Of a stretch of DNA of 34,332 nt, positions 2,421 through 20,331 are shown one piece after another; within the stretch, counting starts at the first letter, position 1; the number at the start of each line of letters is the position of its first letter. This stretch comes from a candidate division WOR-3 bacterium. GTDB lineage: Bacteria > SDB-A. Location of the stretch: positions 1 through 34,332 of the forward strand of contig JAFGSQ010000023.1 of assembly GCA_016934535.1 (NCBI GenBank), written 5' to 3'. A program made the translations under genes and the position numbers. The notes beneath the pieces were generated by a model. That model was not told where the DNA came from. It ran no database searches and saw only the letters and a list, made by a program, of their open reading frames with translations.

Positions 2421-2768
2421 ATCGCGCTCCTTTTTAGGTTCAAGAATTTGCTTGGATTGAAAACAGAATTTTGACCGGCAGACAAATTCGATGAGTTTTC
2501 GGAAAAAAGTTTTGCGGTCTAAAAGGAAAAAGGTCAGCAAAAAACCAGCTAAACCAGCAGAGGCTATACCGACAGGACAACCGGGCTTTCCACAGAAAGG
2601 ACATACCGAAAGTGATGAATAAATTGATGTAAATCCGAACCAGATTCCGAAAAATTTTACAATTTTACCGAATAATTGATAAATTATTACTGGTTTTTTG
2701 TAACTTTTCTCTTTGCTATTAAACTTATGCTTGGTCATGTTTCCAGCTTGAAGTTTAATATTTTCCAT
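2421..2768 (-). CDS. In-frame membrane extension upstream of Hcp, with CPFCGxxGCP motif
   Basis: This 116-codon segment has no stop codon before it runs in frame into hcp, so it could be read as a fused N-terminal domain or as a small protein whose stop was lost. It is basic at the N-terminus, then has a hydrophobic helix at about residues 30-52, a cysteine-rich turn [14 protein letters not shown] at about 54-67, a second helix (about 67-84, [14 protein letters not shown]) and a basic tail with two further cysteines (CRSKFCF). The two-helix topology with a CxxC...C loop suggests a membrane-anchored thiol or metal site. I do not recognise a named family. ATG codons exist at 2768 and 2738, neither with a good ribosome binding site. 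hcp has its own strong site at 2420, so translation of hcp alone is also possible. Expression of this segment is unproven. Confidence 0.5.
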
Positions 2769-2892: not shown

Positions 2893-3183
2893 ATGGATAA
2901 AATACAGAATATTGAAACTCTTATATGCGAGACTGCAATTCTTCTTGAAAAGTTCGGAGAAACTAGCTGGGCGAGCGCTATCAGATCATTTGGAGATGAA
3001 ATTTTTGCTTTGAAAGGTGCAGAAAGAGGACAATCAATCAGAAAATTTTTGCGAATATTTTCTGGATCGGGTTCATTTTCGGATCTCGTTCTGACTATGA
3101 AAGGAAATACTCCGCTTGATATCAACGACCGTTTTTCTTATCTTAAGCGGGAAATACACAAATGCCTTTTAAAAATGCTTTAA
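2893..3183 (+). CDS. Small DUF6966-like protein
   Basis: A 96-residue soluble protein with no signal peptide or membrane segment. The pattern of an N-terminal helix (ETLICETAILLEKFGETSWASAIR), then a segment that ends in a G-S-G-S-F-SDLVL block, followed by a polar turn and a C-terminal helix, resembles small uncharacterised proteins of the DUF6966 type, where a GMGSFNDLVL-like motif is conserved. The resemblance is from memory and is not exact. The function is unknown; in other genomes such proteins appear alone or near immunity-like genes, which I cannot confirm here. There is no clear Shine-Dalgarno sequence before the ATG. It is followed, 130 bases on, by the large hybrid kinase. Confidence 0.6.
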   Translation: MDKIQNIETLICETAILLEKFGETSWASAIRSFGDEIFALKGAERGQSIRKFLRIFSGSGSFSDLVLTMKGNTPLDINDRFSYLKREIHKCLLKML

Positions 3184-3313: not shown

Positions 3314-6300
3314 ATGTCTTTGAGAACCAAAACTCATCTGACGCTGACAATTTTTGCTTTGGCGTCTTTTTTATTCTTTTTTTTGCTTAACAACATATTC
3401 CCTCTTCTTTTTCTCGACTTGGTTTTTTGTCTTGTTTTTTTTTTGCTGACGAGTATCTTCATAGACCGTTATATTCTGCGGAAAATTTCAACTTTATCCA
3501 AATTCGCTGAAGACCTCACCGTTAAGCCAATTGAACAAAAGAGGCTGGATTGCAAGGGTAAAGACGAAATATCAAAACTTTGCCTAAATATAAATTTGAT
3601 GCTCGACTCCATTACAAGGTCGAGTAGAGAAGAGATTCTTAATTCCGAAATGGCAAACGCGGTAATAAGAAATTCACCCATAGGGATTTCCGTCAGAGAC
3701 AGCAGGGGAAAACTCCTTTTTTTCAACGAGAGATGGAAAAATTTGTGGAACATGAACGATATACAGATTGATGAAGATAGACAAGACAGGAAAGAATTGA
3801 AATTGGACTACAAGGACTCTTATTTGAGCGACTGGCTTACCGAGGTTGAAAATCTGTATAAAAACGGAGGATCTCTGTATATCCCTCAGCTTTTTGTCAA
3901 AAGGCCGAGAGGAGGCGACCCGATTTGGATATCCCACTATTTCTATTCTATCCTCGATGAAAAAGGGTACGTCGACAGAGTCGTCATAATGACTGAAGAT
4001 ATCACCGAGAAAAAAATCGAAGAAGACAAAAGAAAAGAAAAGGCAGTCAAGGCGAAAATATTTCAAGAAGTTTTGCTCGATCTGATAAGGATGACAAGCG
4101 AGGATTTATGGGAATACTACGCTCTTCTTCTCGAGAAAACAGCGAACGCTCTCAAGGTCTCACACTCGAGTATATGGTTTTACAACGAAGACCAGACCAT
4201 GCTTGTCTGCTTTATAATGTATGACAAAACCAGAGGAAGATTTGAAAAAGGATTTTCGATAAAGACTGAAGATTGCCCCCTTTATTTTAATTACATCGAG
4301 ATAAACCGGACACTCGCGGTCGAAGACGTTTATTCAGAAACATCAACCTCTGAATTAGCCGATGTATATTGCAAAAACATGAACATATACTCAATTCTCG
4401 ACGCGCCTATCAGATCTGAAGGCAGTGTAATAGGGGTCATCACATTTGAAAACGCAGGAGATTACGTCGAGTGGACGGATGAAGATGAAAATTTTGTCGG
4501 TTCTGTTTCTGATATAGCTTCTTTGGCTTATGAGAGCACTGAGAAGGAGAAGACGAAAAAACTTCTTGAAGAATCTGAAAACAAATACAGAAACATCGTC
4601 GATAATTCACTTGTAGGCGTTTTCATTATGGATACAAATGGAAATTTTATTTTTGCCAACGAAGCCATGCCTCAGATCTTGGACTGTGACTCTTCCGACG
4701 AACTTTTAAAGCATAATATTTCTTCCTTCTACGTCAAACCCGAAGGCGCATCAGCGTTTTTTGAAAATATTTATAGTGTGAAAAAACTCAAAAACTGGGA
4801 AATTGATTTAAGGACAAAAAAGAGTAAATTGAAAAGAACCCTTCTGAACGTCTATTTCGACGGAAAAGCGCTGACTGGAATGATGATGGATATATCCGCC
4901 ATCAAAGAGACCGAAGAAAACCTCAACTCCGAAAAAGAAAGGTTGGCTGTGACTCTGAAATCCATCGGCGACGGAGTTATCGTGACGGACATGAACGGTA
5001 AAGTAGTCCTTATGAACTCCGTGGCGGAAAAACTCACCGGGTGGAGAGAGGAAGATTCAGTTGGAAGAAATGTCGACGCAGTATTTTGCATAGTAGATAA
5101 AATGGGGGGGGAATCCATTGAAAATCCAGTGGACAGGGCTATAAAGTCAGGTGAAATAGCCAATTTAACAGAAGGCGCGGTCCTTATTTCCAAGGAAGGT
5201 CAAGAGAGAATACTCGCCGACAGCGCCGCTTTGATAAAGGACAAATCCGGAAAAATAATAGGAGTAGTGCTCGTTTTCAGGGATGTGACGGAAAAAATAA
5301 AAATCGAACAGGAACTGTCAAAAGTCGACAAACTCGAAACGGTAGGTATTCTCGCCGGAGGCATCGCTCACGATTTCAATAACATGTTGGCGGGAATATT
5401 GGCGAATATTTCGCTGGCGAAAATTGTTCCGGAAGAAAAAGCGAAAATTAAATTTCTTGAAAAAGCCGAAAAGGCAATAGACAGGGCAAGAGAACTCACT
5501 ACGCAGCTTCTCGTTTTCTCAAAAGGCGGAGCGCCGGTAAAAAACGTCGTTTCGTTGAAGAGTCTGATTGAAGAGACGGCGACTTTCGCTCTGACAGGTT
5601 CAAAATCCAAATGTATTTTTCAATTTCAGAACGACCTTTTCAATGTTGAAGCTGACCCTGGACAGCTTAGCCAAGTGATAAACAACCTAGTTATAAACGC
5701 CGATCACTCTATGGCTTCAGGTGGTAAAATCATAATTGAAGCGGTTAATTCAGAAGTCGATGATTTTTCGACTCTGCCATTGGAGAAAGGCGATTACGTC
5801 AAAATTTCTGTTAAAGACGAGGGCGTTGGAATATCCCCGGAAAATTTAAACAAGATATTCGATCCTTTCTATTCGACAAAGAAAAAAGGAAGCGGTCTCG
5901 GGCTTTCGATATGCCTTACCATTGCCAAAAATCACGGGGGGCATATCACCGTATATTCCGAACAAGACAAAGGCTCCGTCTTCAACTTGTACTTACCCGC
6001 GACGCATAGCGACGAGATGGTAAACGAGAAGACTAACAATATAGTATTCGGAAAAGGGGACATTCTCGTGATGGACGACGAGATAATGATAAGAGAAATC
6101 GCTAAAGATATGCTTTCTTATCTTGGCTACAAGTGTGATGTCGCTTCCAATGGAGATCAAGCTGTCAAACTGTACGATAAAAAAGTTAAAAATGGCGAAA
6201 GGTACGACGCTGTGATTCTTGATTTGACTGTTCCAGGCGAAAAAGGCGGAAAAGACACCATAAAACTGATAAAAAATATAGACGAAAAAGCTATCGGCAT

Positions 6301-6430
6301 AGTCTCAAGCGGTTATTCCGACGATCCTGTCCTGTCAAGGTTTTGGAATTATGGCTTTGACGGGAGAATACTTAAACCTTATAAATTAGAAGAACTCAGC
6401 GCCGTGTTGTCCGACCTTTTAAAAAAATAA
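3314..6430 (+). CDS. Membrane-bound hybrid sensor histidine kinase (PAS-GAF-PAS-PAS-HisKA-HATPase-REC)
   Basis: A 1038-residue hybrid kinase. Two closely spaced hydrophobic segments (about residues 8-26 and 28-52) leave almost no periplasmic loop, so sensing is probably cytoplasmic or intramembrane. A HAMP-like region follows. PAS domain 1 is at about 118-230, a GAF domain at about 253-405, PAS 2 at about 423-530 and PAS 3 at about 543-665. The dimerisation/phosphoacceptor helix contains GIAHDFNNMLAG with His686. The ATPase domain shows NNLVINAD, DEGVGI and GSGLGLSI. A C-terminal receiver carries acidic D921/D922, phosphoacceptor D970 (VILDLTVP) and K1021. The HDFNN motif places it with the NtrB/PleC-like kinases that often act in phosphorelays. 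No separate partner regulator with an output domain is adjacent, so the downstream target is unknown. It is followed 20 bases later by urocanate hydratase. Confidence 0.93.
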   Translation: MSLRTKTHLTLTIFALASFLFFFLLNNIFPLLFLDLVFCLVFFLLTSIFIDRYILRKISTLSKFAEDLTVKPIEQKRLDCKGKDEISKLCLNINLMLDSITRSSREEILNSEMANAVIRNSPIGISVRDSRGKLLFFNERWKNLWNMNDIQIDEDRQDRKELKLDYKDSYLSDWLTEVENLYKNGGSLYIPQLFVKRPRGGDPIWISHYFYSILDEKGYVDRVVIMTEDITEKKIEEDKRKEKAVKAKIFQEVLLDLIRMTSEDLWEYYALLLEKTANALKVSHSSIWFYNEDQTMLVCFIMYDKTRGRFEKGFSIKTEDCPLYFNYIEINRTLAVEDVYSETSTSELADVYCKNMNIYSILDAPIRSEGSVIGVITFENAGDYVEWTDEDENFVGSVSDIASLAYESTEKEKTKKLLEESENKYRNIVDNSLVGVFIMDTNGNFIFANEAMPQILDCDSSDELLKHNISSFYVKPEGASAFFENIYSVKKLKNWEIDLRTKKSKLKRTLLNVYFDGKALTGMMMDISAIKETEENLNSEKERLAVTLKSIGDGVIVTDMNGKVVLMNSVAEKLTGWREEDSVGRNVDAVFCIVDKMGGESIENPVDRAIKSGEIANLTEGAVLISKEGQERILADSAALIKDKSGKIIGVVLVFRDVTEKIKIEQELSKVDKLETVGILAGGIAHDFNNMLAGILANISLAKIVPEEKAKIKFLEKAEKAIDRARELTTQLLVFSKGGAPVKNVVSLKSLIEETATFALTGSKSKCIFQFQNDLFNVEADPGQLSQVINNLVINADHSMASGGKIIIEAVNSEVDDFSTLPLEKGDYVKISVKDEGVGISPENLNKIFDPFYSTKKKGSGLGLSICLTIAKNHGGHITVYSEQDKGSVFNLYLPATHSDEMVNEKTNNIVFGKGDILVMDDEIMIREIAKDMLSYLGYKCDVASNGDQAVKLYDKKVKNGERYDAVILDLTVPGEKGGKDTIKLIKNIDEKAIGIVSSGYSDDPVLSRFWNYGFDGRILKPYKLEELSAVLSDLLKK

Positions 6431-6450
6431 AAAATACGATGGAGGCTTAC

Positions 6451-8472
6451 ATGTCCGACAAGAATTCCAAACAGAACTCAATTACCCATATTTTTGAAGA
6501 ATTGCCGTCCAGGAAAAATTTCAAAACCGGTATAAGAAGAGCCCCAAAAAGAAAGATGCCGCTACAAGGGCGGGAAATTGACAGAGCTTTGATCAACGCT
6601 TTGCGTTATATACCGGAAAAGCATCACGAAGAACTCGCCCATGAATTTCTTGAAGAACTTCTGACCATGGGCAGAATCTATGGATACAGGTTCAGACCCG
6701 AAGGAGAGATTAAAGCCCGAAGCGTCGATGAATACGAGGGGATACTCGAAGCGAGGGCTCTTCAGTTAAACATCGACAACAATTTGGATTTCGACGTAGC
6801 TCTATATCCATACGAGTTGGTCACTTATGGAGAGACGGGGCAGGTTTGTCAGAACTGGATGCAGTACAATCTGATAAAAAAGTACCTCAGCTTTATGAAA
6901 GACGACCAGACTCTCGTAGTTATGTCAGGTCACCCGCTGGGGCTGTTTCCTTCAAAAAAATCGCTTCCAAGAGTCGTTTCTACAAACGGTCTTCTAGTGG
7001 GCCAGTGGGACGATGTCGAAAATTTCAACAGGGCGGCGTCACTCGGAGTTTCAAACTATGGACAGATGACCGCGGGAGGCTGGATGTATATAGGCCCCCA
7101 AGGAATAGTTCACGGAACTTACATCACCCTTCTCAACGCCGGAAGGAAGTATCTGAATATCCCGGAGGATAAGGACCTGTCGGGAATCCTTTTTTTGTCT
7201 TCAGGGCTTGGAGGCATGAGCGGCGCTCAGGCAAAAGCTGTTGAGATTGCCGGGGGTATAGGTGTAATCGCTGAAGTAGATGAGTCGAGAATCCGGACCA
7301 GACATTCACAGGGTTGGGTTAAAATCGTCACCGGCGATCTTAAAAATGTTTTTTCTGAAGTAGAGAAACACAGAAAGTCTGAAAAACCTGTTTCTATAGC
7401 TTATCACGGTAACATCGTCGATCTACTTGAATACTGCGTAAAAGAAAATATTGAAGTAGAGCTTCTTTCCGACCAGACCTCCTGCCACGCTGTCTACGAA
7501 GGCGGTTATACGCCGGTTGGACTGACATTTTCTGAAGGCAGGCAACTTCTCTCAAATAATCCTTCTGTTTTCAGAGAAAAAGTGGACGAGTCGCTAAAAA
7601 GGCATTTTTCAGCCATTAAAAAACTGACGGACAGGGGTTCGCGGTTTTGGGATTACGGCAATAGTTTTATGGCTTCCGTCTTCGAAGCCGGGCAAAAGGA
7701 GATATCGAAAAACGAAAGGGATATGACGGATGGGTTTATATGGCCCTCCTATGTCGAAGACATAATGGGACCCGTTTGTTTTGACAGAGGTTTTGGCCCT
7801 TTCAGGTGGGTGTGCCTATCTGGGGAAAATTCCGACCTCGAAAAAACCGACAAGGCCGCCATGTCTTGCCTTGACCCAAAGCTCTCTTCTCTTCACAGGG
7901 ACAATTGGGTCTGGATAAGGGACGCCATGAAAAACAATCTTGTCGTAGGCAGCAGGGCGAGGATTCTCTACGCGGATGAAAAAGGCAGGATGGAGATTGC
8001 TCTTTTGTTTAATAAAATGATAAAAAACGGCGAGATAGGACCAGTGCTCCTCGGTAGAGATCACCACGATGTTTCAGGAACGGATTCTCCTTTAAGAGAG
8101 ACAGCGAATATTTACGACGGAAGCAGGTACACCGCCGAAATGTCGGTACAGTCTTTTGCGGGAAACGTAGCCAGAGGCATGACCCTTGCAGTGCTTTCAA
8201 ACGGAGGGGGAGTGGGCATAGGAAGGGCCAGCAACGGAGGTTTTGGACTTGTCCTCGACGGTTCGGTCGAAAAGGACGCTATAATCAGATCGGCTCTGAG
8301 TTGGGATGTGATCTGCGGTGTCGCGAGAAGGAGCTGGGCGATGAACGAGAACGCGGTGAAAACAGCTTCTCTGTGGAATGAAGAAAACGAGGGCAAGGGT
8401 GTTTTGACCCTTCCTCATCAGGCAAACGTAAGTTACATAGAAGGAATCGTCAAAAAGCAAACTGGAGGATAA
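6451..8472 (+). CDS. hutU: Urocanate hydratase
   Basis: Converts urocanate to 4-imidazolone-5-propionate, the second step of histidine catabolism, using tightly bound NAD+ (EC 4.2.1.49). Characteristic segments include YGETGQVCQNWMQYNL, MSGHPLGLFPS, the glycine-rich LGGMSGAQAKA, the SDQTSCH block and WVCLSG, where urocanases carry the active-site cysteine. At 673 residues it is of the long type (as in animals and some Bacteroidota-like bacteria), rather than the roughly 550-residue HutU of Pseudomonas and Bacillus. I start it at 6451, not at an in-frame ATG at 6439, because GGAGG at 6441-6445 sits at the right distance before 6451. No other hut genes (hutH, hutI, hutG/ftcD) are in the window. 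The stop codon is 3 bases from the convergent glyS stop. Confidence 0.95.
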   Translation: MSDKNSKQNSITHIFEELPSRKNFKTGIRRAPKRKMPLQGREIDRALINALRYIPEKHHEELAHEFLEELLTMGRIYGYRFRPEGEIKARSVDEYEGILEARALQLNIDNNLDFDVALYPYELVTYGETGQVCQNWMQYNLIKKYLSFMKDDQTLVVMSGHPLGLFPSKKSLPRVVSTNGLLVGQWDDVENFNRAASLGVSNYGQMTAGGWMYIGPQGIVHGTYITLLNAGRKYLNIPEDKDLSGILFLSSGLGGMSGAQAKAVEIAGGIGVIAEVDESRIRTRHSQGWVKIVTGDLKNVFSEVEKHRKSEKPVSIAYHGNIVDLLEYCVKENIEVELLSDQTSCHAVYEGGYTPVGLTFSEGRQLLSNNPSVFREKVDESLKRHFSAIKKLTDRGSRFWDYGNSFMASVFEAGQKEISKNERDMTDGFIWPSYVEDIMGPVCFDRGFGPFRWVCLSGENSDLEKTDKAAMSCLDPKLSSLHRDNWVWIRDAMKNNLVVGSRARILYADEKGRMEIALLFNKMIKNGEIGPVLLGRDHHDVSGTDSPLRETANIYDGSRYTAEMSVQSFAGNVARGMTLAVLSNGGGVGIGRASNGGFGLVLDGSVEKDAIIRSALSWDVICGVARRSWAMNENAVKTASLWNEENEGKGVLTLPHQANVSYIEGIVKKQTGG

Positions 8473-8475
8473 AAC

Positions 8476-10608
8476 CTAAGAAGTCCTGTCCCTTTCTTCT
8501 CCCTCTATCACGATTTTGCTCAGGTCGGCTATTCTTTTGAAAAAATTGGATATATCGGACAAGAGAGCTTTTCTGTTTATCATCTTTGATTCGTCTTCAA
8601 CGTTGACCATCACGTTGTCGAAAAAATTGTCTATCGGTTTTTTTAAATCGAGAAGCCTGTCCATTGCCGATGTGTAATTTTTTACGCCGAGAAACTTTTC
8701 TACTTCCGGTTTTATCTTTTTGAATGAGTGCAAGAGCTCTCTTTCGTAATCTGATTCGAAAATCCCTTCGTCCACGGAGGCTTTAAAATTGAAATCTTCG
8801 AGTATTCTCTCTGTTCTTTTCGAGGCGATTACGAGGTCTATGAAGTTCTTCTGTTCCCTATACTCCGATAGAGCTGAGGATATTTCAAAAGCCTTCAAGG
8901 GGTCGTTTCCAGAGACTGCTATTGCCGCGTCAGCGATGTCGTACCTTATTCCTCGGTCTCTCAGTGCTCTCTCTATACGCGATGAAAAATATTCGCAGAC
9001 CTTTTTGAAAGTATCTTCCGTATTTTCCGCCAGCCCCTGATTCGCGTAAAGACCGAGATTTCTCTTCAGTAAACCTTCAAAGTCTATATGCCAGCTTCTG
9101 TCCAAGGAGATTTGAATTATCAAATTCGCGGATTTTCTCAAACCGTAGGGATCAGCTGAACCCTTCGGTATTCCAAGGATTGAAATAAAACCGCAGAGAT
9201 GATCCATCTTGTCAGCCATGCCAAGTATTTGTGATTCGTCCGAAAAAACAGGATCTGAAATTTCGAGAAGATGGTTTCTGATTATTTCAGCCGTTTTTTC
9301 AGATTCACCGGATTTTAGAGCGTAATAACTCCCGATCACACCCTGAAGGGAAGTGAATTCCTTTCCGTCTCTTATCATAGCAGTCGCCATGTCGCATTTG
9401 CAGAGTTCAGAAGCTCTTTTAAGGGCTTCGATGTCTATTTCAGACCGGCAGAAGTCTTTTATCAGTAGGACAAGTTCTTTCAGCCTTTCTGTCTTCTGCT
9501 GTAAAGTTCCCAACCCTCTCATGTAAGTCATCTCCGAGAGTTTTTCGGAAAAGGAGGTAAAGGGTTTTTTCGTATCGTCGGCGAAATAAAAATAAGCGTC
9601 TTCAAGCCTTGAGCCCACAATTGTCTCGTTGCCTTTGACAGCGTTTTCACAAGCTCTTTCCGATATACCGTCGGCTACATACAAGAAGTAGAGCATAAGA
9701 GAACCGTCTTTCCCGGCAATTGAAAAATCCCTTTGATGGCTTTTTAGAGCGGTGATGATAATCTCCGAAGGCAAAGTCATGTATTCTTCCGGCAGTCTGC
9801 CTTCGACTAGAACCGGGTACTCGACGAGATCGGCGACTTCCTCGATCAGGTCTTCATCTCTTATCAATTTTCCGCCTAATTGCATGGATTTGTTTTCAAG
9901 CAGTTCTATGAGTGTTTTCTTTCTCTCTTCGTGGTCGGCGATAATTTTTTTCTCTCTCAGCGCTTCCTTGTAGTCGCGTGGATTGACTTTTGCGAAATCG
10001 TCTCTTCTTGTGTGAGATATTACTGTTGTTTTGGCTGATTTCACTCCGGCAATTTCGACTGGTATCAAATCTTCACCGAATATGAACAATATGTTTCTGA
10101 GCGGCCTGGGGAAGCGAAAACCGGACGCTTCCCATTTCATCGTCTTTGGGAATTTGATTGTTCTGAGAGCTTCGGGGAGCCAAGACGAAAGGATGCTTTC
10201 TGTTTTTTCTCCTTCCTGAAACTTCTTGAGAAACAAAAATATTCCCTTTTCGCCGGAATCTACGAAAAGTTCAGTCGCTTTCGCGCCGTTTTTTTTGAGA
10301 AATCCTTCAAGGGCTTTTGTCGGTTTGCCGTTTTTCAATGTCTTTTCATGGCAGTCAAGTTGTTTCTCGAACGCTACCGCGACGGAAGGTCCTTTTATTA
10401 AAATTTCGCTGTCAGGTTTTTTAACAGCGAGTTCCCTGACTATTAAAGCGAGTCGTCTCGGAGTGTACATAACAGAAATTTCAGAAAACGCGAGGTTGTT
10501 TTTTTTGAGAAAACATTCGGTTTTTGTCTTGAATTCATCGGAAAAAAATCTTAGGTAAGACGCTGGGAAATCCTCAAAATATAATTCGAGCAAGAGGTCT
10601 TTATTCAT
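8476..10608 (-). CDS. glyS: Glycyl-tRNA synthetase beta subunit
   Basis: The large (710-residue) subunit of the heterotetrameric (alpha2-beta2) bacterial glycyl-tRNA synthetase, which charges tRNA-Gly. The N-terminal LLLELYFEDFPASYL, the PRRLALIVREL segment, the KTMKWEASGFRFPRPLRN block and the SHTRR, DLVEYPVLVEG and TALKSHQRDF elements are typical of GlyS. The helical C-terminal anticodon/tRNA-binding part follows (GSADPYGLRKSANLII and onward). It begins inside the last codons of glyQ (8-base overlap at 10601-10608), so the two subunits are probably translationally coupled. It ends 3 bases from the convergent urocanase stop, leaving no room for a separate terminator. Confidence 0.97.
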   Translation of the reverse strand: MNKDLLLELYFEDFPASYLRFFSDEFKTKTECFLKKNNLAFSEISVMYTPRRLALIVRELAVKKPDSEILIKGPSVAVAFEKQLDCHEKTLKNGKPTKALEGFLKKNGAKATELFVDSGEKGIFLFLKKFQEGEKTESILSSWLPEALRTIKFPKTMKWEASGFRFPRPLRNILFIFGEDLIPVEIAGVKSAKTTVISHTRRDDFAKVNPRDYKEALREKKIIADHEERKKTLIELLENKSMQLGGKLIRDEDLIEEVADLVEYPVLVEGRLPEEYMTLPSEIIITALKSHQRDFSIAGKDGSLMLYFLYVADGISERACENAVKGNETIVGSRLEDAYFYFADDTKKPFTSFSEKLSEMTYMRGLGTLQQKTERLKELVLLIKDFCRSEIDIEALKRASELCKCDMATAMIRDGKEFTSLQGVIGSYYALKSGESEKTAEIIRNHLLEISDPVFSDESQILGMADKMDHLCGFISILGIPKGSADPYGLRKSANLIIQISLDRSWHIDFEGLLKRNLGLYANQGLAENTEDTFKKVCEYFSSRIERALRDRGIRYDIADAAIAVSGNDPLKAFEISSALSEYREQKNFIDLVIASKRTERILEDFNFKASVDEGIFESDYERELLHSFKKIKPEVEKFLGVKNYTSAMDRLLDLKKPIDNFFDNVMVNVEDESKMINRKALLSDISNFFKRIADLSKIVIEGEERDRTS

Positions 10609-11452
10609 TTTCTTTCTCAGTTTCGACGTATATTTTCGCCGCGTTTCTCGAGATTTTTCTTATCCTTGCTATGTAAGCAGCTCTTTCGTCGGGGCTTATA
10701 ACGCCTCTCGCGTCGAGCAGGTTGAAAAGGTGGGAACATTTTATGGCGTAGTCATAGGCGGGAAAAACAAGATTCTCCTCTAAAAGCCTGAATGATTCTT
10801 TTTCGTATATTTCAAAAATATCGCGAAGAAGTTTTGTGTCAGCTCTGTCAAAATTGAATTTGCACCACTCACTCTCTGATCTGCCGTAGATATCTTCCCA
10901 CTTCAAATCTTCTGAAAGAGATAATTCCTGAACCCTGTTTTTTTTCTGTGAGAACAGTGCGATTCTCTCCATGCCGTATGTCAACTCGGCGGACACAACG
11001 TCAAGTTCAAGACCTCCCATTTGTTGAAAGTAAGTGAACTGGCTGATTTCCATGCCGTCAAGCCAGACCTCCCAACCCAATCCCTGAGCGCCGAGGGTCG
11101 GGGACTCCCAATCGTCTTCGACAAATCTGATATCGTGTTCATCTGTCTTTATACCGATACTCCTCAAGCTCTCTATATAGAGAAACCTGACGTCCTGAGG
11201 AGCCGGTTTAAGCAGGACCTGAAACTGTGTGAACTGTTGAAACCTCAGGGGATTTTCGTTGTATCTACCGTCTTTCGGTCTTTTCGATATTTCAAGGTAT
11301 GCGATTTTTATGGGTTTTTTACCGAGAGAGAACAGGAAAGTGAAAGGGTTGAATGTCCCCGCTCCGACTTCACTAGAATAGGGGTGAGCGATGTAACAAC
11401 CCTTTGATGCCCAAAAGTCTGCCAGGGATTTTATCATTGAGTCGAAATTCAT
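10601..11452 (-). CDS. glyQ: Glycyl-tRNA synthetase alpha subunit
   Basis: The catalytic alpha subunit (283 residues, usual length) of the alpha2-beta2 glycyl-tRNA synthetase. Diagnostic class II-type sequence includes WASKGCYIAHPYSSEVGAGTFNP near residues 13-35, NPLRFQQFTQFQVLLKP, DDWESPTLGAQGLGWEVWLDGMEISQFTYFQQMGG and ELTYGMERIAL. It lies 1 base after the end of the cupin gene and overlaps glyS by 8 bases, forming a cupin-glyQ-glyS minus-strand operon driven from the promoter at 11750-11777. The ribosome binding site is weak (GGAT), so coupling to the upstream cupin reading frame is likely. Confidence 0.97.
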   Translation of the reverse strand: MNFDSMIKSLADFWASKGCYIAHPYSSEVGAGTFNPFTFLFSLGKKPIKIAYLEISKRPKDGRYNENPLRFQQFTQFQVLLKPAPQDVRFLYIESLRSIGIKTDEHDIRFVEDDWESPTLGAQGLGWEVWLDGMEISQFTYFQQMGGLELDVVSAELTYGMERIALFSQKKNRVQELSLSEDLKWEDIYGRSESEWCKFNFDRADTKLLRDIFEIYEKESFRLLEENLVFPAYDYAIKCSHLFNLLDARGVISPDERAAYIARIRKISRNAAKIYVETEKENE

Positions 11453-11453
11453 T

Positions 11454-11726
11454 TTATCCGAGTTTGTATAGTTTACGGACCGGTCTTTCTACAGCCCATG
11501 TGCACTTAAGGCCTTTGGGGAATGTAACGACGTCTCCTTCTTCAATTTCGACTTCCTGGTTGTCTCCGTATTGGATTTTTACTTTTCCCTCGATAAAAAT
11601 GCAGGTCTCGTCTTCATCGTATTCCCAATCGAAAGTTTCAATACCGCAAGACCACTGAGGCCAGTTTTCTGCGTTCAGATTATTTATGCTCTGATCGCCG
11701 GCTTTTTTGAGTATTTTTATATCCAT
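11454..11726 (-). CDS. Small cupin-fold protein (Cupin_3 / DUF861-like)
   Basis: A 90-residue single-domain cupin. The barrel shows CGIETFDWEYDEDETCIFIEGKV (split here for reference: first part WSCGIETFDWEY, then EDETCIFIEG), followed by EEGDVVTFPKGLKCTWAV, the pattern of the EutQ/ureidoglycine aminohydrolase-like Cupin_3 group. The substrate cannot be predicted. I start at 11726 because AGGAGG lies 7 bases upstream; an upstream in-frame stretch to 11837 has no homology-like character. It is the first gene of the operon with glyQ and glyS, so it shares their promoter. Whether it has any relation to tRNA-Gly charging is unknown; co-transcription may be incidental. Confidence 0.8.
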   Translation of the reverse strand: MDIKILKKAGDQSINNLNAENWPQWSCGIETFDWEYDEDETCIFIEGKVKIQYGDNQEVEIEEGDVVTFPKGLKCTWAVERPVRKLYKLG

Positions 11727-11749
11727 GATTTCCTCCTGAGAAAAAAAAG

Positions 11750-11777
11750 AATATATTTTTGCGGTATGTCTTGTCAA
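11750..11777 (-). promoter_or_regulatory. Strong sigma70-type promoter for cupin-glyQ-glyS
   Basis: On the minus strand, a perfect -35 TTGACA (plus coordinates 11772-11777) is separated by 16 bases from a TATATT -10 box (11750-11755). Transcription would start near 11743, giving a leader of about 17 bases before the cupin ATG at 11726, with the AGGAGG ribosome site just after the start. No leader regulatory element such as a T-box can fit. Confidence 0.65.
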
Positions 11778-11996
11778 CGTAATTGTAAAGGTTTTGGTCG
11801 AGGGAGAGAAGATGCATAGAGGATTTTTAACAGCCAAGTGCAGGATTCTTCAATATGTATGTACTAAAATTATGTCAAAAAAAACTCGTCTCTGAAAAGA
11901 AAAAAATCAGCCCTGCAGCAGTATGGTGCAATTTTCAACGATGTTATTTAGAAACCAGTTATGTGCCAAGTATTGTTATGAAACAGATGATTTTTT

Positions 11997-12005
11997 TGGT
12001 ATAAT
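11997..12005 (+). promoter_or_regulatory. Possible extended -10 promoter for the tldE/tldD operon
   Basis: TGGTATAAT (TATAAT at 12000-12005) is an extended -10 element, about 160 bases upstream of the tldE-like start at 12165. The best -35-like sequence, TTGTTA at 11973-11978, is 21 bases away, too far for a normal pair, but extended -10 promoters can do without it. Confidence 0.4.
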
Positions 12006-12164
12006 GTTTCTCAAGTTCAGCGCTCATCAAGAATTGTTTTCAAGAAGGAATAGTTTTGTATTTTTATCTGGAGATTTTTGTCCATTGCGCATTGAAGCCG
12101 TTTGGTTTTATCCTTATCCGGAACAAAGAAATGATCTGGATTTCCGATAAATGAAGGAGGGAAG

Positions 12165-13496
12165 ATGATAGATAAGCAGAAGATCAAGGATTTTCTGGCA
12201 AAATCTGCCGGAGTAGAAACAGAAATAATAATTTATTCGGAGAATAATGCTTCGACTAGGTTCTCTAACAACTCGATAACCCAGAATGTGAAAAACGAGA
12301 GTATCTATTTCAAGCTCAGGGTTTTGGAGGGGAAAAAGACGTCAGCTGTTTCATCCGACGATTTATCGGTTGAAAATCTCGAAAAAATGAGAAAAAAAGC
12401 CCTGGAGATAAATAAATTCGCCAAAGACGACAGCGACCTTTTACCTTTGCTGGACAAAGACGACGAATTGACAGTCGATTCCGCTTACGATAAAAAAACA
12501 GCGGAGATGGAGCCTTCAATGAGGACCGAAATCGTTAATAGATGTGTGAGCGAAGCCGGGAAAAAAGGTATGCAAGCGGCTGGCTTTTTGAGAAATGGCA
12601 GCTCGGGGCTTGTAATAGCGACCAATAAAGGGATGTGGCGTGAGAACAGACGCAGTCATTTTTCACTTTCACTTTCGGTTATGAACGAAGAAGGCTCCGG
12701 ATGGGCGAGTTTTTCATCTTCGAAATTCGACCAGAAAGCTGTGGAAGAAGTTGTAAAAAAAGCCGTTGAAAAAGCCGACGCCAGCAGAAATTTACAGACA
12801 CTTCCCCCCGGTCCATACACTGTTATTCTCGAACCGGCTGCGGTCGCTGATCTTATAGCTTTTCTAGGTTTTGGAGGATTAGGAGGCCTTTCTTTTGTCG
12901 AAAACAGATCCTTCATGAGCGGGAAATTGGGAAAGAAAATAATGGATGAAAAAATCACAATCACGGACGACGTCAACGATGATCTCTTCAAGGCTTGCCC
13001 TTTTGATTTTGAAGGACTGGAGACAAAAAAAGTTGTTTTGATAGAAAACGGAGTGGCAAAAGCCGTTGTTCATGACAGAAAAACCGCCGCTATAGCCCTG
13101 ACAGAATCTACAGGGCATTCTCTACCTCAGCCAAACAGCCATGGTCCTTTTCCCAGAGCTCTCAAAGTTTCGAAAGGCAGCTCGAAAATCGAAGAAATGA
13201 TAAAATCAACAGAAAAGGGAATACTTGTGACAAGATTCCACTACACCAATATGCTCGACCCTATGAGAGTAACCGTTACGGGCATGACCAGAGACGGTCT
13301 GTTCCTAATCGAGAAAGGTAAAACGACAAAAGCGCTTAAAAATTTCAGGTTCACCGAAAGCATCTTGGAAGCCTTTTCTCGCGTCGTCATGGTCGGAGAC
13401 AGCCATAAATTGACACAGGGCTTTTTTGGAGGCGGCTTTGTCACTCCGGCGCTTAAAATTGAAAACTTCCACTTTTCCAGCAACACGGACTTTTAG
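12165..13496 (+). CDS. tldE: TldE/PmbA-family protein
   Basis: A 443-residue member of the TldD/TldE (U62) family, the non-catalytic partner of the TldD metalloprotease. In other bacteria the pair forms a heterodimer that cleaves unfolded or modified peptides (for example microcin B17 and CcdA processing). Characteristic are the central PPGPYTVILEPAAVADLI and the C-terminal TRFHYTNMLDPMRVTVTGMTRDG block. No HExxxH motif is present, as expected for TldE. A good ribosome site (AAGGAGGGAAG) directly precedes the ATG. It is followed 9 bases later by the tldD-like gene, so the two subunits are made together. Confidence 0.9.
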   Translation: MIDKQKIKDFLAKSAGVETEIIIYSENNASTRFSNNSITQNVKNESIYFKLRVLEGKKTSAVSSDDLSVENLEKMRKKALEINKFAKDDSDLLPLLDKDDELTVDSAYDKKTAEMEPSMRTEIVNRCVSEAGKKGMQAAGFLRNGSSGLVIATNKGMWRENRRSHFSLSLSVMNEEGSGWASFSSSKFDQKAVEEVVKKAVEKADASRNLQTLPPGPYTVILEPAAVADLIAFLGFGGLGGLSFVENRSFMSGKLGKKIMDEKITITDDVNDDLFKACPFDFEGLETKKVVLIENGVAKAVVHDRKTAAIALTESTGHSLPQPNSHGPFPRALKVSKGSSKIEEMIKSTEKGILVTRFHYTNMLDPMRVTVTGMTRDGLFLIEKGKTTKALKNFRFTESILEAFSRVVMVGDSHKLTQGFFGGGFVTPALKIENFHFSSNTDF

Positions 13497-13505
13497 GGAG
13501 GAAAG

Positions 13506-14981
13506 ATGAAAGAACTCGCTTACAGAGCCATCGAAAGGGCTAAAAAAGAAGGCGCTGAATACGCTGACATAAGAATAATTCAGGATGAATCCGAAATGCT
13601 CGAGACGAGAAACGGAAAACCGAGCAGGATTGATTATAATGAGAGCGAAGGTTTTGGAATAAGGGTGCTTTACGACGGATCTTGGGGCTTTGCCTCTTCG
13701 TCCGGAACTAAACCCGAACAGGTAGATAAAATTGCCTCTCTTGCCGTAGAGATAGCCAAAAATTCATCAAAAGTCAGACAGAGAAAAGTGAAACTCGCCA
13801 AGGAGAAGGTCTGGGATGAATTTTGGATGACGCCTTACGTCATAGACCCGTTCAAAGTTCCGGTTTCAGAAAAGCTGGACCTTTTGATGGCGATAGATTC
13901 AATCCTGAGAAAAAAACCGGAAATAAAAGTCGCTATATGCATGATGGAATTCTGGAGAGAGCACCAATGGCTGGCGACTTCTGAGGGAAGTTTTATCGAA
14001 CAGATATATTTAAGGTCTGGCACCGGATATCAAGCTGTAGCGGTGGGCGACCACGAGATGCAGGTCAGAACCTTTCCGAACACCCACAGGGGGCAGTACC
14101 TTTCCACGGGGTACGAACTCGTAGGTTCGCTCGAATTGATCGAAAACGCCGACAGGGTTAGAGATGAAGCTATAGCGCTTTTATCTGCTGAAAACTGCCC
14201 TACGGCGAGAAAAGATATAATATTGACTGGAACTCAGATGGTCCTTCAGATACACGAATCAGTGGGCCATGCGACGGAATTGGACAGAGTACTCGGATAT
14301 GAAGCGAACTACGCGGGCAGATCTTTCGCGACAATGGAAAAGGTTGGAAAACTCAGGTACGGCTCTGAAAAGGTAAACCTCGTCGCTGACAACACACTAC
14401 CAGGAGGACTTTCCACCGCGAGGTTCGACGACGACGCCGTCCCCGCGAAAAGATGGCATATAGTAAAAAACGGTGTTTTTTCAGGATATATGACGAATCG
14501 TGAAATAGCTTTCGAAACAGATCAACCCGAGAGCATGGGCTGTAACAGAGCACAGGGATATTCCAACATTCCCATTATAAGAATCGCGAATCTCAGCCTC
14601 ATGCCCGACAGAGGATCTCTTGAAGATATAATTTCAGATACCGAAGACGGCATACTTATGGACACCAATAAAAGCTGGTCGATAGATCAGATGCGGATGA
14701 ATTTCCAATTCGGGGTTGAAGCCGCTTGGGAGATAAAAAAGGGGAAGAAAACCAAACTTCTGAAAAACGCCAACTACCAGAGTTCGACAGTCGAGTTTTG
14801 GAATTCTTGCGACCGTATAGCTGGTCCCGAAGAATGGAAACTATGGGGTGTCAGAAATTGCGGAAAAGGTCAACCCGGACAGAGCGCGGAAATGTCTCAC
14901 GGCTCTTCACCCGCAAGATTCAGAAATATACAAATAGGCGTAGGCAACGATTTTCTTGAGAAAAATTCCGATTTAATATAA
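13506..14981 (+). CDS. tldD: TldD-family zinc metalloprotease
   Basis: The catalytic TldD partner (491 residues), an intracellular zinc protease acting with TldE. The HExxxH metal motif is intact: QIHESVGHATELDRVLG, with H250, E251 and H255. The family's GCNRAQGYSNIPIIRI segment, containing the cysteine that helps bind zinc, and the C-terminal GPEEWKLWGVRNCGKGQPGQ motif are also present. GGGAGGAAAG lies just before its ATG. Substrates in this organism are unknown; no peptide-modification cluster (such as an RiPP precursor and cyclase) is visible nearby, so a housekeeping role is most likely. Confidence 0.93.
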   Translation: MKELAYRAIERAKKEGAEYADIRIIQDESEMLETRNGKPSRIDYNESEGFGIRVLYDGSWGFASSSGTKPEQVDKIASLAVEIAKNSSKVRQRKVKLAKEKVWDEFWMTPYVIDPFKVPVSEKLDLLMAIDSILRKKPEIKVAICMMEFWREHQWLATSEGSFIEQIYLRSGTGYQAVAVGDHEMQVRTFPNTHRGQYLSTGYELVGSLELIENADRVRDEAIALLSAENCPTARKDIILTGTQMVLQIHESVGHATELDRVLGYEANYAGRSFATMEKVGKLRYGSEKVNLVADNTLPGGLSTARFDDDAVPAKRWHIVKNGVFSGYMTNREIAFETDQPESMGCNRAQGYSNIPIIRIANLSLMPDRGSLEDIISDTEDGILMDTNKSWSIDQMRMNFQFGVEAAWEIKKGKKTKLLKNANYQSSTVEFWNSCDRIAGPEEWKLWGVRNCGKGQPGQSAEMSHGSSPARFRNIQIGVGNDFLEKNSDLI

Positions 14982-15027
14982 TATACATTGAAAGAAATTA
15001 ATCATAAAAATAAATAAGGAGGAGAGG

Positions 15028-16215
15028 GTGATTAAATTGAATTTCAATTACAAGGATATCTTTCGCGCCGGAAGGCTTGGTTTCAGCTTCAAGAAAATGA
15101 GCGCTGGTATGATAGGACTTGTAATTTTGACTGTAGTCTACAACGTTTTTACTTATGTTTCCATGAGCATAGCCGGGGTGCCTTTCGACAGGATTTGGAC
15201 TTTTCAGAGGCTGGCGCCGATACCTTTCGGAATGTCTATGCCATGGTATTCCTGGATTATATGGGCGGTCGGAGCACTTTTGTCCTGGTTCATAATGGCG
15301 TTGACGATTTCAGCAGTTTCCAAAATCACCTTTGAACAACTCAGAGGCGATGAATTTTACGAAGTGGGTAAAGCCTATAAAGATTCCCTGAAACTCTGGA
15401 AGAGCTCTTTCCTTTCGCCAATAATTCTGGCCGTGTTCATAGCGTTTCTTTTCGCGGTGGGAGTTCTTTTTGGTCTGATGGGGAAAATTCCCGTAGCCGG
15501 TCCTTGGATTGTAGGTTTACTATCAGTTTTTCTTTTCCTTGGAGCTTTCTTTATCGTGTATCTTATACTGGTTTGGGTTGTCTCCCTTCTGACTTCTCCG
15601 ACGATATCGGTCGTGACAAACGGCGACAGTTTTGACACTCTTTTTGAGGTTTTCAGCGTTGCCAATGAACAGACGTGGAGATTCGTGGTGTGGCAATTTT
15701 TAAACGGCGCCATTATGACTACGGGAGTTCTGATATATTCTTTCGCCATAAAATTCACCCTGACTTTGTTGAAGTTAGCTATGGATATTCCAAATGGCCA
15801 AGTCTGGTGGAACCAGGTGTGGAACGTGGCGAGAAGCACCCTGCCTTCTCTTCCTCCAATGATACCCTCCCATTTGTACAATATTTTTGCCAAAATGTTT
15901 CCAGGATCGGTGCAGGTATGGCCAATGAATAGTTTGGTCGGCATCGGACCGATGGTAGGAGGAATAATCCTAGCCGTTCTGCTATACCTCGTCATGCTCT
16001 CTATTCTTTCTCTGAAACTTTCGATTTTCAGCGTTGGACAAACCCTTATCTATGTAGTGCTCGTAAAAATTAAGGACGACAGAAATCTTCTTGAGACAAA
16101 AAAGAAATGGTCTATAGACGACGAAGACGAAGATTTGGATGAAGAAGAAAAAGAAGAGGAGAAAGAGGAAGATAAAAAAGAAAAGGAGACTGTTGAGGGA
16201 GAAGCAGAAAAATGA
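15028..16215 (+). CDS. Polytopic membrane protein with strongly acidic C-terminal tail
   Basis: A 395-residue integral membrane protein with roughly six hydrophobic helices (about residues 27-48, 72-98, 130-152, 155-188, 224-250, 310-348). It ends in a cytoplasmic tail in which the last 35 residues are nearly all D, E and K. It starts at a GTG at 15028 preceded by AAGGAGG (15016-15022). I do not recognise the family; the pattern is like generic DUF4013-type membrane proteins. It has no MalF/MalG EAA loop that I can see, so I do not take it for the permease partner of the ABC ATPase 22 bases downstream. The acidic tail could serve metal or protein binding or merely be disordered. Confidence 0.75.
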   Translation: MIKLNFNYKDIFRAGRLGFSFKKMSAGMIGLVILTVVYNVFTYVSMSIAGVPFDRIWTFQRLAPIPFGMSMPWYSWIIWAVGALLSWFIMALTISAVSKITFEQLRGDEFYEVGKAYKDSLKLWKSSFLSPIILAVFIAFLFAVGVLFGLMGKIPVAGPWIVGLLSVFLFLGAFFIVYLILVWVVSLLTSPTISVVTNGDSFDTLFEVFSVANEQTWRFVVWQFLNGAIMTTGVLIYSFAIKFTLTLLKLAMDIPNGQVWWNQVWNVARSTLPSLPPMIPSHLYNIFAKMFPGSVQVWPMNSLVGIGPMVGGIILAVLLYLVMLSILSLKLSIFSVGQTLIYVVLVKIKDDRNLLETKKKWSIDDEDEDLDEEEKEEEKEEDKKEKETVEGEAEK

Positions 16216-16237
16216 TTTGAGGCTTATCTCTTGAAAA

Positions 16238-17326
16238 ATGTCTTATCTTTCACTGAAGAATGTAAGTAAGGTTTTTTCAAAAACCAGGGCATTAGAACCT
16301 GTTGACCTCGAAGCGGAAAAAGGCGAACTGCTCGTAATTGTAGGGCCTTCCGGTTGCGGTAAATCTACTTTGTTGAGAATAGTCGCCGGACTCGAAACTC
16401 CGAGTTCCGGCGAGATTTTTCTGGAGGGGAAAAAAATAAACGACAGGGAGCCGTCCGAGAGGGATATCGCTATGGTGTTCCAGAATTACGCCTTGTATCC
16501 TCACATGAAGGTTAAGGACAATCTTTCTTTTGCCCTGAAGATGAGAAAATTTTCAAAAAAAGAAATTTCCGAGAGGGTGTCGGAAGCCTCGGGGTTGCTC
16601 GAAATTGGAGATTTACTTGACAGATATCCAAAAGAAATTTCGGGCGGAGAAAGACAAAGAGTGGCTCTTGGAAGAGCTATAGTGAGGCATCCGAAGCTTT
16701 TCCTTTTTGACGAACCCCTGTCAAATTTAGACGCGAAATTGAGAGTTCAGATGAGAAGCGAAATCACCAAACTCCACATGAGAATTGGGGTGACGATGTT
16801 GTATGTCACACACGATCAGACAGAAGCGATGACCATGGGAGACAGAATCGCGGTTATGAAATCCGACAAAAAAAACGGTTTGGGCGGGAAAATTTATCAG
16901 ACTGGGGTTCCAATGGACTTGTATGAAAAGCCCGAGAATAAATTCGTCGCTGAATTCATAGGTACACCTTCGATGAATTTCATAGAAAACATAGTTGTTG
17001 AAGACGGAATTGTGCGCGTCAAAAATTTGCAAGATTTACTCAAAAACTTTCAACCTGACGCAGATTACGCGGACATGGTGCTCGGAATAAGACCTGAGAA
17101 ACTGAAAGTGTTCGAGGATCAAACCCACGGTGAAAGGATGAGTGTTGAACTCGTCGAGAGAATGGGGGCGGAAACGCTTGTTTATCTTGTCAAAGACGGA
17201 TTAAAACTTGTTTCAAAAATTTTTAAACCTTTGAAAATAAAAAGCGGAGATTTAGTTGGAGTCGAAATCAGCTCGGAAGACGCGATGTTTTTCGACAGGA
17301 GGGACGGCGGCATAGTTTCTCGATGA
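16238..17326 (+). CDS. ABC transporter ATP-binding protein, MalK/UgpC/MsmX type
   Basis: A 362-residue cytoplasmic ATPase that energises a carbohydrate importer. Walker A GPSGCGKST is at 36-44, followed by the Q-loop VFQNYALYPHM, the signature SGGERQRVALGRA, Walker B LFLFDEPLSNLDAKLR and the H-loop VTHDQTEAM. The C-terminal part (from about residue 240: FIGTPSMNFIE, LGIRPEKLKVF) is the TOBE/OB regulatory domain of sugar-importer ATPases. No cognate permease or substrate-binding protein is in the window, so it may be a shared ATPase in the manner of MsmX. Its stop codon overlaps the ptsH start (ATGA at 17323-17326). The substrate is not determined by sequence. Confidence 0.93.
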   Translation: MSYLSLKNVSKVFSKTRALEPVDLEAEKGELLVIVGPSGCGKSTLLRIVAGLETPSSGEIFLEGKKINDREPSERDIAMVFQNYALYPHMKVKDNLSFALKMRKFSKKEISERVSEASGLLEIGDLLDRYPKEISGGERQRVALGRAIVRHPKLFLFDEPLSNLDAKLRVQMRSEITKLHMRIGVTMLYVTHDQTEAMTMGDRIAVMKSDKKNGLGGKIYQTGVPMDLYEKPENKFVAEFIGTPSMNFIENIVVEDGIVRVKNLQDLLKNFQPDADYADMVLGIRPEKLKVFEDQTHGERMSVELVERMGAETLVYLVKDGLKLVSKIFKPLKIKSGDLVGVEISSEDAMFFDRRDGGIVSR

Positions 17327-17592
17327 GAAAAGTTTTAAAAATCGTCAACAAACTCGGGATTCACGCCAGACCTGCCGCTGTTTTGGTAAAAATAGCGAAT
17401 GCTTATGACTGCGATGTATTTTTCGAAAAGGACGGAATGAGGGTCAACGGGAAGAGCGTTCTCGACCTGATGATTCTTGCCGCTCCAAAAGGGACAGAGA
17501 TATCAGTTGAAACGGTTGGAGAAGGGGAAAAGGAGTGCATGGGTGAAATTGAAGAAATTTTCGCGAGAGGTTTTGACGAAGAAATAGAATGA
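17323..17592 (+). CDS. ptsH: Phosphocarrier protein HPr
   Basis: An 89-residue HPr, the small phosphocarrier of the PEP:sugar phosphotransferase system. The active-site His14 sits in GIHARPAAVL, and a serine (Ser45, in GKSVLDLMILAA) occupies the position that is phosphorylated by HPr kinase in some bacteria. It overlaps the ABC ATPase by 4 bases and ptsI by 4 bases (17589-17592). The genes ABC ATPase, HPr and EI are therefore one tightly coupled unit. No HPr kinase or EII gene is nearby, so HPr could be regulatory rather than a transport carrier; whether Ser45 is used cannot be read from sequence. Confidence 0.94.
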   Translation: MRKVLKIVNKLGIHARPAAVLVKIANAYDCDVFFEKDGMRVNGKSVLDLMILAAPKGTEISVETVGEGEKECMGEIEEIFARGFDEEIE

Positions 17593-19343
17593 CACAGAAA
17601 AAGGAAAAAATCTTAAAAGGAATACCAGTCAGCGCCGGTGTAGCTATAGGCAAGTCTAACGTCTATAAAATACTTAAAAAGCGCGAGGAGTTCGTGTCCC
17701 GCCCTAGAATTGAATCCGATCAAGTAGGAACAGAAATCGGAAAACTGCTGCGCTCGGTATCGCAGGCTAAGGCGACATTGAACCATCACAGATCTCGATT
17801 GACAGGCAGGACGAGTAATTACCACCTCGGAATATTCGAGTTTCAGTCATTTCTTCTTGAAGACGAATCATATATTGGAGCGATCAAAAAACTTATTGAG
17901 GAAAAACAGATTACCGCCGGTGAAGCTATTTGGACTGTTACAGATGAATTGGCCAAAAAATTAAAACAGACATTCGAAGATATCAAAGACGTTGGCAATT
18001 TGATTTTTTCAGGTCTTTCAGATTCGGAAAATTTCCATCTATCGATAGCCAATCCTGATGAACCGTTTATTTTCATCTGCGATATACTGGCGCCTTCCAT
18101 GATAATTTACCTTTTTGAAAGCAAGGTATCCGGAATTATCACGGAATTCGGAGGAAAGACTTCTCACGCAGTGATATTGTCCGAAAGCCTCGGTGTACCG
18201 GTTATAGTCAACGCAAAAAAAATTACTGAAACAGCCAAAAACGACGATGTTGTGGGAATGGAGGGGGGATGCGGCAAAATTGTCTTGAACCCCTCCGAGT
18301 TCAGAATAAAGGCATACAAAAGACTTCAGGTATGGAACGGAAAATACAAGACGATAATATTGAAAAAAGCGAAAAATAAAGCCGAGACCAAAGACAGCTT
18401 TAAAGTCAAAGTAATGGCGAATATTGAAATTGTCTCTGAGATTACCCAAGCTGTTGAACAGGGAGCTGAAGGAATAGGCCTTTACAGAACGGAGTTTATC
18501 TTTCTGGATAACCCGCATTATTTACCGACTCACAGGGAGCAGTTTAAAATATACAAAGAGGTTATTTCGATGATGAACGGCTTGCCGGTAATTTTCAGAA
18601 TCGCGGATTTGGGGTCGGATAAAATACCGTTTTATCTCGAGAGCCACCGGAAAATATGGAGGGAAGAAATGAATCCCGCTCTCGGTTACAGAGGAATTAG
18701 ACTAATGCACGAAAATTACAAAGAATTAATACTTCCCCAATTAAAAGCTCTTTTGAGAGCTTCGGCATACGGACCGGTGAAAATTATGCTTCCCATGGTC
18801 TCCCTTGTGAATGAGGTAAAAGAGTTTATCGAGAAAACAGATGAGGCTATGGATGAACTTGGGAATGAAGCTCCTTCAAAGAAACCTCAGCTTGGCATCA
18901 TGCTTGAAACTCCTGTATCGATATTGATGATGGAAAAATTTCTGCCTTATGTTGATTTTTTTTCGATCGGAACGAACGATCTCACGCAGTACACTCTCGC
19001 TGTGGACAGAGACAACCCTCAAGTCGGGTATATCTGGGATCATATGCACCCGGGAGTTCTTCAGCTTGTGAAGAGGGCAATCGACATTGCCAACAAAGCA
19101 AAAAAAGAGATCAGCATTTGCGGAGAATCCGCGGGAGATCCTTTTGCGGCGGCTGTTTTTGTAGGTTTCGGGCTTAAAAATTTAAGCGTTTCGGCTTTAA
19201 AAGTAGCAGTCACAAAACACTATATCAGACAATGGACAAAGAAAGAACTCGATGAGATAGCTTCGGAGGTTCTGGCAATGGATTCGTCTGAAGATGTCAA
19301 ACAATACGTTAAAAGGACGGTGAAGGTTGGCTTATCAGGGTAA
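17589..19343 (+). CDS. ptsI: PTS enzyme I (phosphoenolpyruvate-protein phosphotransferase)
   Basis: Enzyme I (584 residues) autophosphorylates with PEP and passes phosphate to HPr. The swivelling phosphohistidine domain has GGKTSHAVILSESLGVP with active-site His193. The C-terminal PEP-binding barrel shows GIGLYRTEFIFLD, MNPALGYRGIRL, KIMLPMVSL, GIMLETPVS, FFSIGTNDLTQYTLAVDRDNP and the catalytic cysteine C511 in SICGESAGDPF. The domain order and length are normal for EI. It overlaps HPr by 4 bases. The likely start of the next gene is 7 bases beyond its stop. Confidence 0.96.
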   Translation: MTQKKEKILKGIPVSAGVAIGKSNVYKILKKREEFVSRPRIESDQVGTEIGKLLRSVSQAKATLNHHRSRLTGRTSNYHLGIFEFQSFLLEDESYIGAIKKLIEEKQITAGEAIWTVTDELAKKLKQTFEDIKDVGNLIFSGLSDSENFHLSIANPDEPFIFICDILAPSMIIYLFESKVSGIITEFGGKTSHAVILSESLGVPVIVNAKKITETAKNDDVVGMEGGCGKIVLNPSEFRIKAYKRLQVWNGKYKTIILKKAKNKAETKDSFKVKVMANIEIVSEITQAVEQGAEGIGLYRTEFIFLDNPHYLPTHREQFKIYKEVISMMNGLPVIFRIADLGSDKIPFYLESHRKIWREEMNPALGYRGIRLMHENYKELILPQLKALLRASAYGPVKIMLPMVSLVNEVKEFIEKTDEAMDELGNEAPSKKPQLGIMLETPVSILMMEKFLPYVDFFSIGTNDLTQYTLAVDRDNPQVGYIWDHMHPGVLQLVKRAIDIANKAKKEISICGESAGDPFAAAVFVGFGLKNLSVSALKVAVTKHYIRQWTKKELDEIASEVLAMDSSEDVKQYVKRTVKVGLSG

Positions 19344-19350
19344 TAAGATT

Positions 19351-20331
19351 ATGTGGGACTGGATCAACGCTTGGCCCGTGGACTTAAAAAAGGGGTATTT
19401 TAAAACCGGCGAATTAGAGTTAACCGGCATTGGTTCAGTCATTTTTTGGGGTATGGGCGGATCCGGGATGGTTGGGAAAATAATGGCTGATATGTCTTCT
19501 GAAATGGGTTCCAAGCCAGTGTTCTCCTCAGGGGGGTACTCGTTGCCTAATTGGATTTCAGAAGACGACCTTTTTATACCCGTGAGTTATTCAGGAAACA
19601 CAGAGGAAACGCTTGAGTCGTTTGACAAGGCTGTTTTAAAAAGGGTTAGGTTGATCAGCATGTCGTCGGGAGGAAAACTCGCTCAAAGAGCTGGTGCAAA
19701 CAATTTTATAAACCTTCCGCTTCAGGAGGGAAGAGCGCCGAGAGCCGATTTGCCCGAGATGCTGGGAATATCCCTGAGTATCTGTGAAAAAGCCGGTGTT
19801 TTTTATTCGATGGCGGATAAGCTTGAAAGGGCTGTCTCCAGTGCGGTTTCTGTTCTTGAAGAGAGAAAAAGAGAGATTAAAGAATTGGCCCAAAAAACCT
19901 TTGGTTCCAACTTATACATTATCGCCCCGGAAAAGATGAAAAGCGTCTCCTACAGGTGGGTATGCCAGATAAACGAAAATTCAAAAAAAAGAGCGCAAGG
20001 GTTATGGCTACCGGAGATGAATCATAATTTTGTCGTCGGCGGGGTGCCCGAGAATTCAGTTTTCATTTATCTCGTCCAGAAAATATCGGATGATGAAAAA
20101 AATCAAAAGAGGCGTCAAGGAACTTCAGCCCTTATGAAAGAAATGGCTGAAAATTTTACCTTTTTCGAGATCGAGCTCGCAGGGGAGGATTATTTTTCCT
20201 CCTACGTGGAATCTCTTGTCTGTGGCGACCTCTACAGCTATTTTTTGGCTGAGTTTTTGGATGTTGATCCTTTGCCCATTTCCGCTATCGACAAGCTGAA
20301 ATCATTTATGATCTCCGGGGCACAAAGATGA
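19351..20331 (+). CDS. Bifunctional phosphoglucose/phosphomannose isomerase (SIS domain)
   Basis: A 326-residue SIS-fold sugar-phosphate isomerase of the archaeal/Aquifex-type PGI/PMI family, interconverting glucose-6-P or mannose-6-P with fructose-6-P. Diagnostic segments are WGMGGSGMVG, VSYSGNTEETL, LPLQEGRAPRADLPEMLG (the signature loop of this family) and the C-terminal PEMNHNFVVG. I choose the ATG at 19351; a TTG at 19327 in the same frame overlaps ptsI and has its purine-rich sequence directly against it, with no spacer. It shares a 4-base overlap with the nucleotidyltransferase. It lies in the operon after ptsI, which suits sugar-phosphate entry to glycolysis or to nucleotide-sugar synthesis. 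Preference for glucose- over mannose-phosphate cannot be read from sequence. Confidence 0.85.
   Translation: MWDWINAWPVDLKKGYFKTGELELTGIGSVIFWGMGGSGMVGKIMADMSSEMGSKPVFSSGGYSLPNWISEDDLFIPVSYSGNTEETLESFDKAVLKRVRLISMSSGGKLAQRAGANNFINLPLQEGRAPRADLPEMLGISLSICEKAGVFYSMADKLERAVSSAVSVLEERKREIKELAQKTFGSNLYIIAPEKMKSVSYRWVCQINENSKKRAQGLWLPEMNHNFVVGGVPENSVFIYLVQKISDDEKNQKRRQGTSALMKEMAENFTFFEIELAGEDYFSSYVESLVCGDLYSYFLAEFLDVDPLPISAIDKLKSFMISGAQR

Follow-up and report, generated by a model that had tools for sequence, protein, structure and literature searches.

An unnamed membrane hairpin module in one open frame with a class I hybrid cluster protein in a candidate division WOR-3 contig

The window, the whole stretch of 34,332 nucleotides analyzed here (contig JAFGSQ010000023.1 of a candidate division WOR-3 bacterium), carries on its minus strand a single stop-free frame of 659 codons (789–2768), which spans a small membrane-protein module and a hybrid cluster protein (Hcp), an enzyme of nitrosative stress. 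The module takes up 116 codons (2421–2768, −) and consists of a first hydrophobic segment of 17 residues (residues 39–55; 2604–2654, −), a 12-residue Cys loop (residues 56–67; 2568–2603, −), a second hydrophobic segment (residues 68–84; 2517–2567, −), and a basic tail (residues 85–116; 2421–2516, −), beyond which lies the 543-aa hcp gene (789–2420, −). A sequence-only reading of the locus had described 116 stop-free codons ahead of the Hcp start, encoding two hydrophobic stretches around a CxxC-x4-C loop and then a basic tail, and this description holds for both the frame, which is open throughout, and the sequence. The further CxxxxC pair that it pointed out in the tail is present in the window copy and is not conserved among the relatives of the module, which end near here. 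An in-frame extension of such length ahead of hcp is rare; at 31 other full-length Hcp loci, the stop-to-stop frame has a median of 16 and a maximum of 80 codons beyond the matched gene, compared with 125 codons at the window hcp. Hcp frames of >650 codons also occur in G289 and G071, yet the stretch upstream in these genomes does not contain the module motif. A small DUF6966 gene (2893–3183, +) is divergent from the module–hcp frame.

The Hcp half of the frame (residues 117–655) matches the hydroxylamine reductase profile NF003658 (E = 6e-236; 784 bits against a curated cut-off of 367; profile positions 1–542 of 546 covered) and the Prismane profile PF03063 (E = 2e-164), with the match starting exactly at MFCNQCQE, residue 117. 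The N-terminal [4Fe-4S] cysteines (CxxC-x8-C-x5-C) and the hybrid-cluster ligand motifs are all present, as seen by pattern search and by alignment to 1e2u, and judged by these matches and motifs the protein is a complete class I Hcp. In a tree of 31 Hcps it pairs with that of G172 (support 96/97), apart from the Hcps of G000:C10, G002, and G003, which group together. Since the window Hcp groups with the foreign G172 lineage and not with that of its own phylum, its gene looks horizontally acquired. Upstream of hcp in G000:C10, G002, and G003 is a regulator gene (named Rrf2-like from sequence), in the place where the window hcp has the module.

The genome bin that holds the window also contains contig C57, which is colinear with window positions 3314–22441 (L090) at about 53–86% protein identity and shares with it genes for a histidine kinase, urocanate hydratase, glyS, glyQ, two TldD/PmbA-like proteins, an ABC-transporter ATPase, a PTS-like pair, and metK (several named from sequence). 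Three of these genes, metK, glyQ, and glyS, occur twice in the bin at 61–78% identity, and such duplication of normally single-copy genes implies that either the window contig or C57 comes from a second, related organism. To judge from its gene content, then, the bin (stated contamination 3.92%) mixes two related organisms, and because of this mixture its two hcp genes may belong to different organisms. A synteny comparison that looked for the site without hcp in G002 and C57 ran into a contig end in each case, at the histidine kinase or a little upstream of it.

The nearest other genus (G003) has a 113-aa stand-alone relative of the module (40% identity; E = 3e-21 in a single-sequence search), which stops at about the point where the window Hcp starts. 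In total, 16 relatives were found outside the window, in G003, a Desulfobacca MAG, an Omnitrophota MAG, G237, G370, G260, G122, G436, and eight more genomes of the phylum of G370, with the copy in G395 degenerate or truncated and that in G420 cut by the contig end. These relatives are separate small genes of 72–136 aa from several phyla, whereas the window module has no stop codon of its own before hcp. Given the G003 relative and the further members in several phyla, the module represents a real family and not a frame open by chance. Nine residues (C56, P57, C59, G60, G63, C64, P65, G67, and G75), among them the three cysteines of the loop, are invariant in 15 aligned sequences, and the window module matches a profile built with itself included at E = 1.6e-56. 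The relative in G436 (L109:1471–2154, −) is extended at the N-terminus, where a Cys-His stretch (WSCESGHRHEH) precedes the hairpin.

The view that the module lies outside any named family is upheld, as neither the module alone nor 15 family members gave a match above cut-off in Pfam or NCBIfam. No solved structure in the PDB matched the module, a tblastn search of plasmids and phages gave no match, and a literature search returned nothing on the loop motif or on COG3689 with zinc. TMEM43, YccF, and AgrD were rejected as identities because these matches were weak and far below cut-off, and a scan of viral contigs with the module profile gave a single match, set aside as a zinc-finger-like false positive. 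An AlphaFold model based on three sequences is poor (mean pLDDT 57, low confidence), and places helices at residues 26–53, 65–82, and 85–102, of which the first covers most of the first hydrophobic segment. In most family members, both flanks commonly carry basic residues and the loop has almost none, so that by the positive-inside rule both ends of the module are predicted to be cytoplasmic and the Cys loop to face outward. The joining of a CxxC-x4-C loop to an Fe-S enzyme could suggest that the loop relays electrons to Hcp as its redox partner, and one relative does adjoin genes for thioredoxin and a DsbD/CcdA-type protein. However, the predicted topology would put the membrane between the loop and a cytoplasmic Hcp, which speaks against electron transfer from one to the other, and no other hcp among those of about 197 genomes has the loop, so a redox partnership appears highly improbable.

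Gene neighborhoods point the module in another direction. In G415, G412, G407, and G394, it is the third gene, on the same strand and within about 70 nt, after genes for an ArsP_1 permease and a DUF1980/TIGR03943-like subunit, whose TIGR03943 scores are below the cut-off of that family. This three-gene operon (ArsP_1, DUF1980/TIGR03943-like, and the CPxCGxxGCPxG hairpin), in which the third gene is unnamed, is conserved in one phylum (L069, L071, L072, and L073). In the Desulfobacca MAG, the module comes after the thioredoxin and DsbD/CcdA-type genes, and in the Omnitrophota MAG after genes for a YHS-like protein and a CusA-like efflux pump (CusA named from sequence only). In G260, znuA follows the module at a distance of about 630 nt, and this link to zinc is weak because of that distance and because the znuA neighbor is absent beside the module of the relative G436. 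An ArsP_1-family permease, BAS1632, belongs to the Zur regulon of Bacillus anthracis (PMC6336718). As its relatives lie beside or near ArsP_1/DUF1980, ZnuA, CusA–YHS, or thioredoxin–CcdA genes, the module probably assists metal or thiol homeostasis at the membrane as an accessory protein, the best-supported role on grounds of guilt by association.

The membrane Cys-loop module is joined in frame to Hcp, as the sequence-only reading had stated, whereas the partnership with Hcp that it proposed gains no support from the comparison of genomes, since the relatives keep the company of metal permeases and the module adjoins or is fused to hcp in no other genome checked. None of the 16 module relatives is fused to or adjoins hcp, and G003, G237, G370, and G122 have both genes at separate places. 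A search of Hcp loci, which the same reading had called for, covered a sample of 386 genomes (134 with Hcp) and 98 genomes of the phylum with the nearest Hcp in the tree (65 with Hcp), with two genomes common to both lists, and found no Hcp carrying the module in about 197 other genomes, the segment occurring elsewhere as a stand-alone gene. Survey alignments reaching into residues 74–116 were rejected as module copies, as many have stops and enter AT-rich upstream DNA, and two stop-free alignments of the G494 type proved to be an unrelated charged extension. The join looks like a one-off event and not a conserved partnership, given that the module is a separate gene in every other genome checked and often lies beside metal transporters. 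With the phylum of the window represented by only four genomes, a fusion shared by its close relatives may have escaped notice.

A lineage-specific functional fusion, in which the hairpin would anchor Hcp on the cytoplasmic side of the membrane, close to respiratory enzymes that produce NO, while a short soluble form is also made from the internal start, is unlikely in view of the solitary case among these genomes and of the metal and thiol genes that accompany the module relatives. It would be consistent with a frame that is open with the conserved residues of both halves all kept, and with a predicted topology that puts the C-terminus, and hence Hcp, in the cytoplasm. Escherichia coli Hcp occurs in the interactome of the membrane-bound nitrate reductase during nitrate respiration (PMC6805990), so a membrane site for Hcp is not absurd. 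N-terminal additions to Hcp also appear to be tolerated in principle, since the Hcps of G494 and G497 are lengthened at the N-terminus by a charged stretch of about 30 residues (MxWDRLKxFFAKEKELAKE...). In these two genomes (L129 and L132, respectively), the Hcps are tandem or single and have a similar charged extension before the first cluster motif. It is quite doubtful that a Cys-loop hairpin fused to this NO-detoxifying enzyme brings it to the membrane while an internal in-frame start yields a second, soluble form; if real and made, the fusion would be the only membrane-anchored Hcp in the genome sample.

The strong ribosome site that had been ascribed to hcp itself is indeed found, as AAGGAG (2427–2432, −) lies within the long frame 6 nt before the hcp ATG, and its retention also speaks against a functional fusion. 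No such site precedes the starts at 2768 and 2738, and translation from the internal start most likely yields a soluble Hcp. Many genes of the window have no ribosome-site match, however, and translation may begin at the long start as well, and a 659-residue protein with Hcp held at the cytoplasmic face is possible as a minor product. Codon statistics favor no single frame in the module tail, and in frame +2 the tail contains TGA and TAA immediately before the ribosome site; together with the origin of the contig in a mixed bin, this would be compatible with two genes that are separate in the living population and were joined by a lost stop codon or a frame-shifting error, whether through an assembly error or a recent private mutation. 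Against such an error or mutation, the module frame aligns with the G003 relative well past the second hydrophobic segment, the assembled sequence gave no sign of misassembly, and a single error at exactly this spot is a priori unlikely, which leaves this explanation improbable.

The favored explanation, judged fairly probable, is that an hcp gained from another lineage ended up in frame after a membrane-protein gene to which it is unrelated, with the soluble Hcp translated from the start of hcp itself. In this view the two genes differ in origin and lie head to tail, the first encoding a small membrane hairpin protein of the unnamed CPxCGxxGCPxG family with a probable accessory function in metal or thiol homeostasis, and the second being a horizontally acquired class I hcp. 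With no stop in the first gene before the second, the two would form one frame as assembled, from which Hcp would most likely be translated at its own AAGGAG site, and some tethered 659-residue protein may be made as well. The join would then be incidental, with no sign of selection for joining. Counting against this explanation are the frame that stays open across the junction and the rarity of such long in-frame extensions ahead of hcp.

Compared with the unnamed CPxCGxxGCPxG family, the window module has the same hairpin and all nine invariant residues, whereas it is more diverged, runs without a stop into hcp, and has no metal permease beside it. This family of small membrane proteins with an invariant three-cysteine loop is the more durable result. 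In two-part permease operons of ArsP_1 (PF03773) and DUF1980/TIGR03943, module relatives form the third gene in one phylum, whereas the window copy lacks an adjoining permease of that kind, and the operon setting suggests, in a form open to testing, an accessory of these poorly understood metal permeases. The Hcps of G494 and G497 resemble the window protein in having an in-frame extension ahead of Hcp, but this extension has no membrane segment and no Cys loop and is unrelated in sequence to the window module. Class I Hcps (NF003658, TIGR01703, and PF03063; structures 1e2u, 1gn9, and 8cnr) are matched end to end by window residues 117–655, with all cluster-ligand motifs. Such Hcps are normally soluble and start at the first cluster motif, whereas in the window a long frame with a membrane hairpin precedes Hcp, and an internal AAGGAG start is also present.
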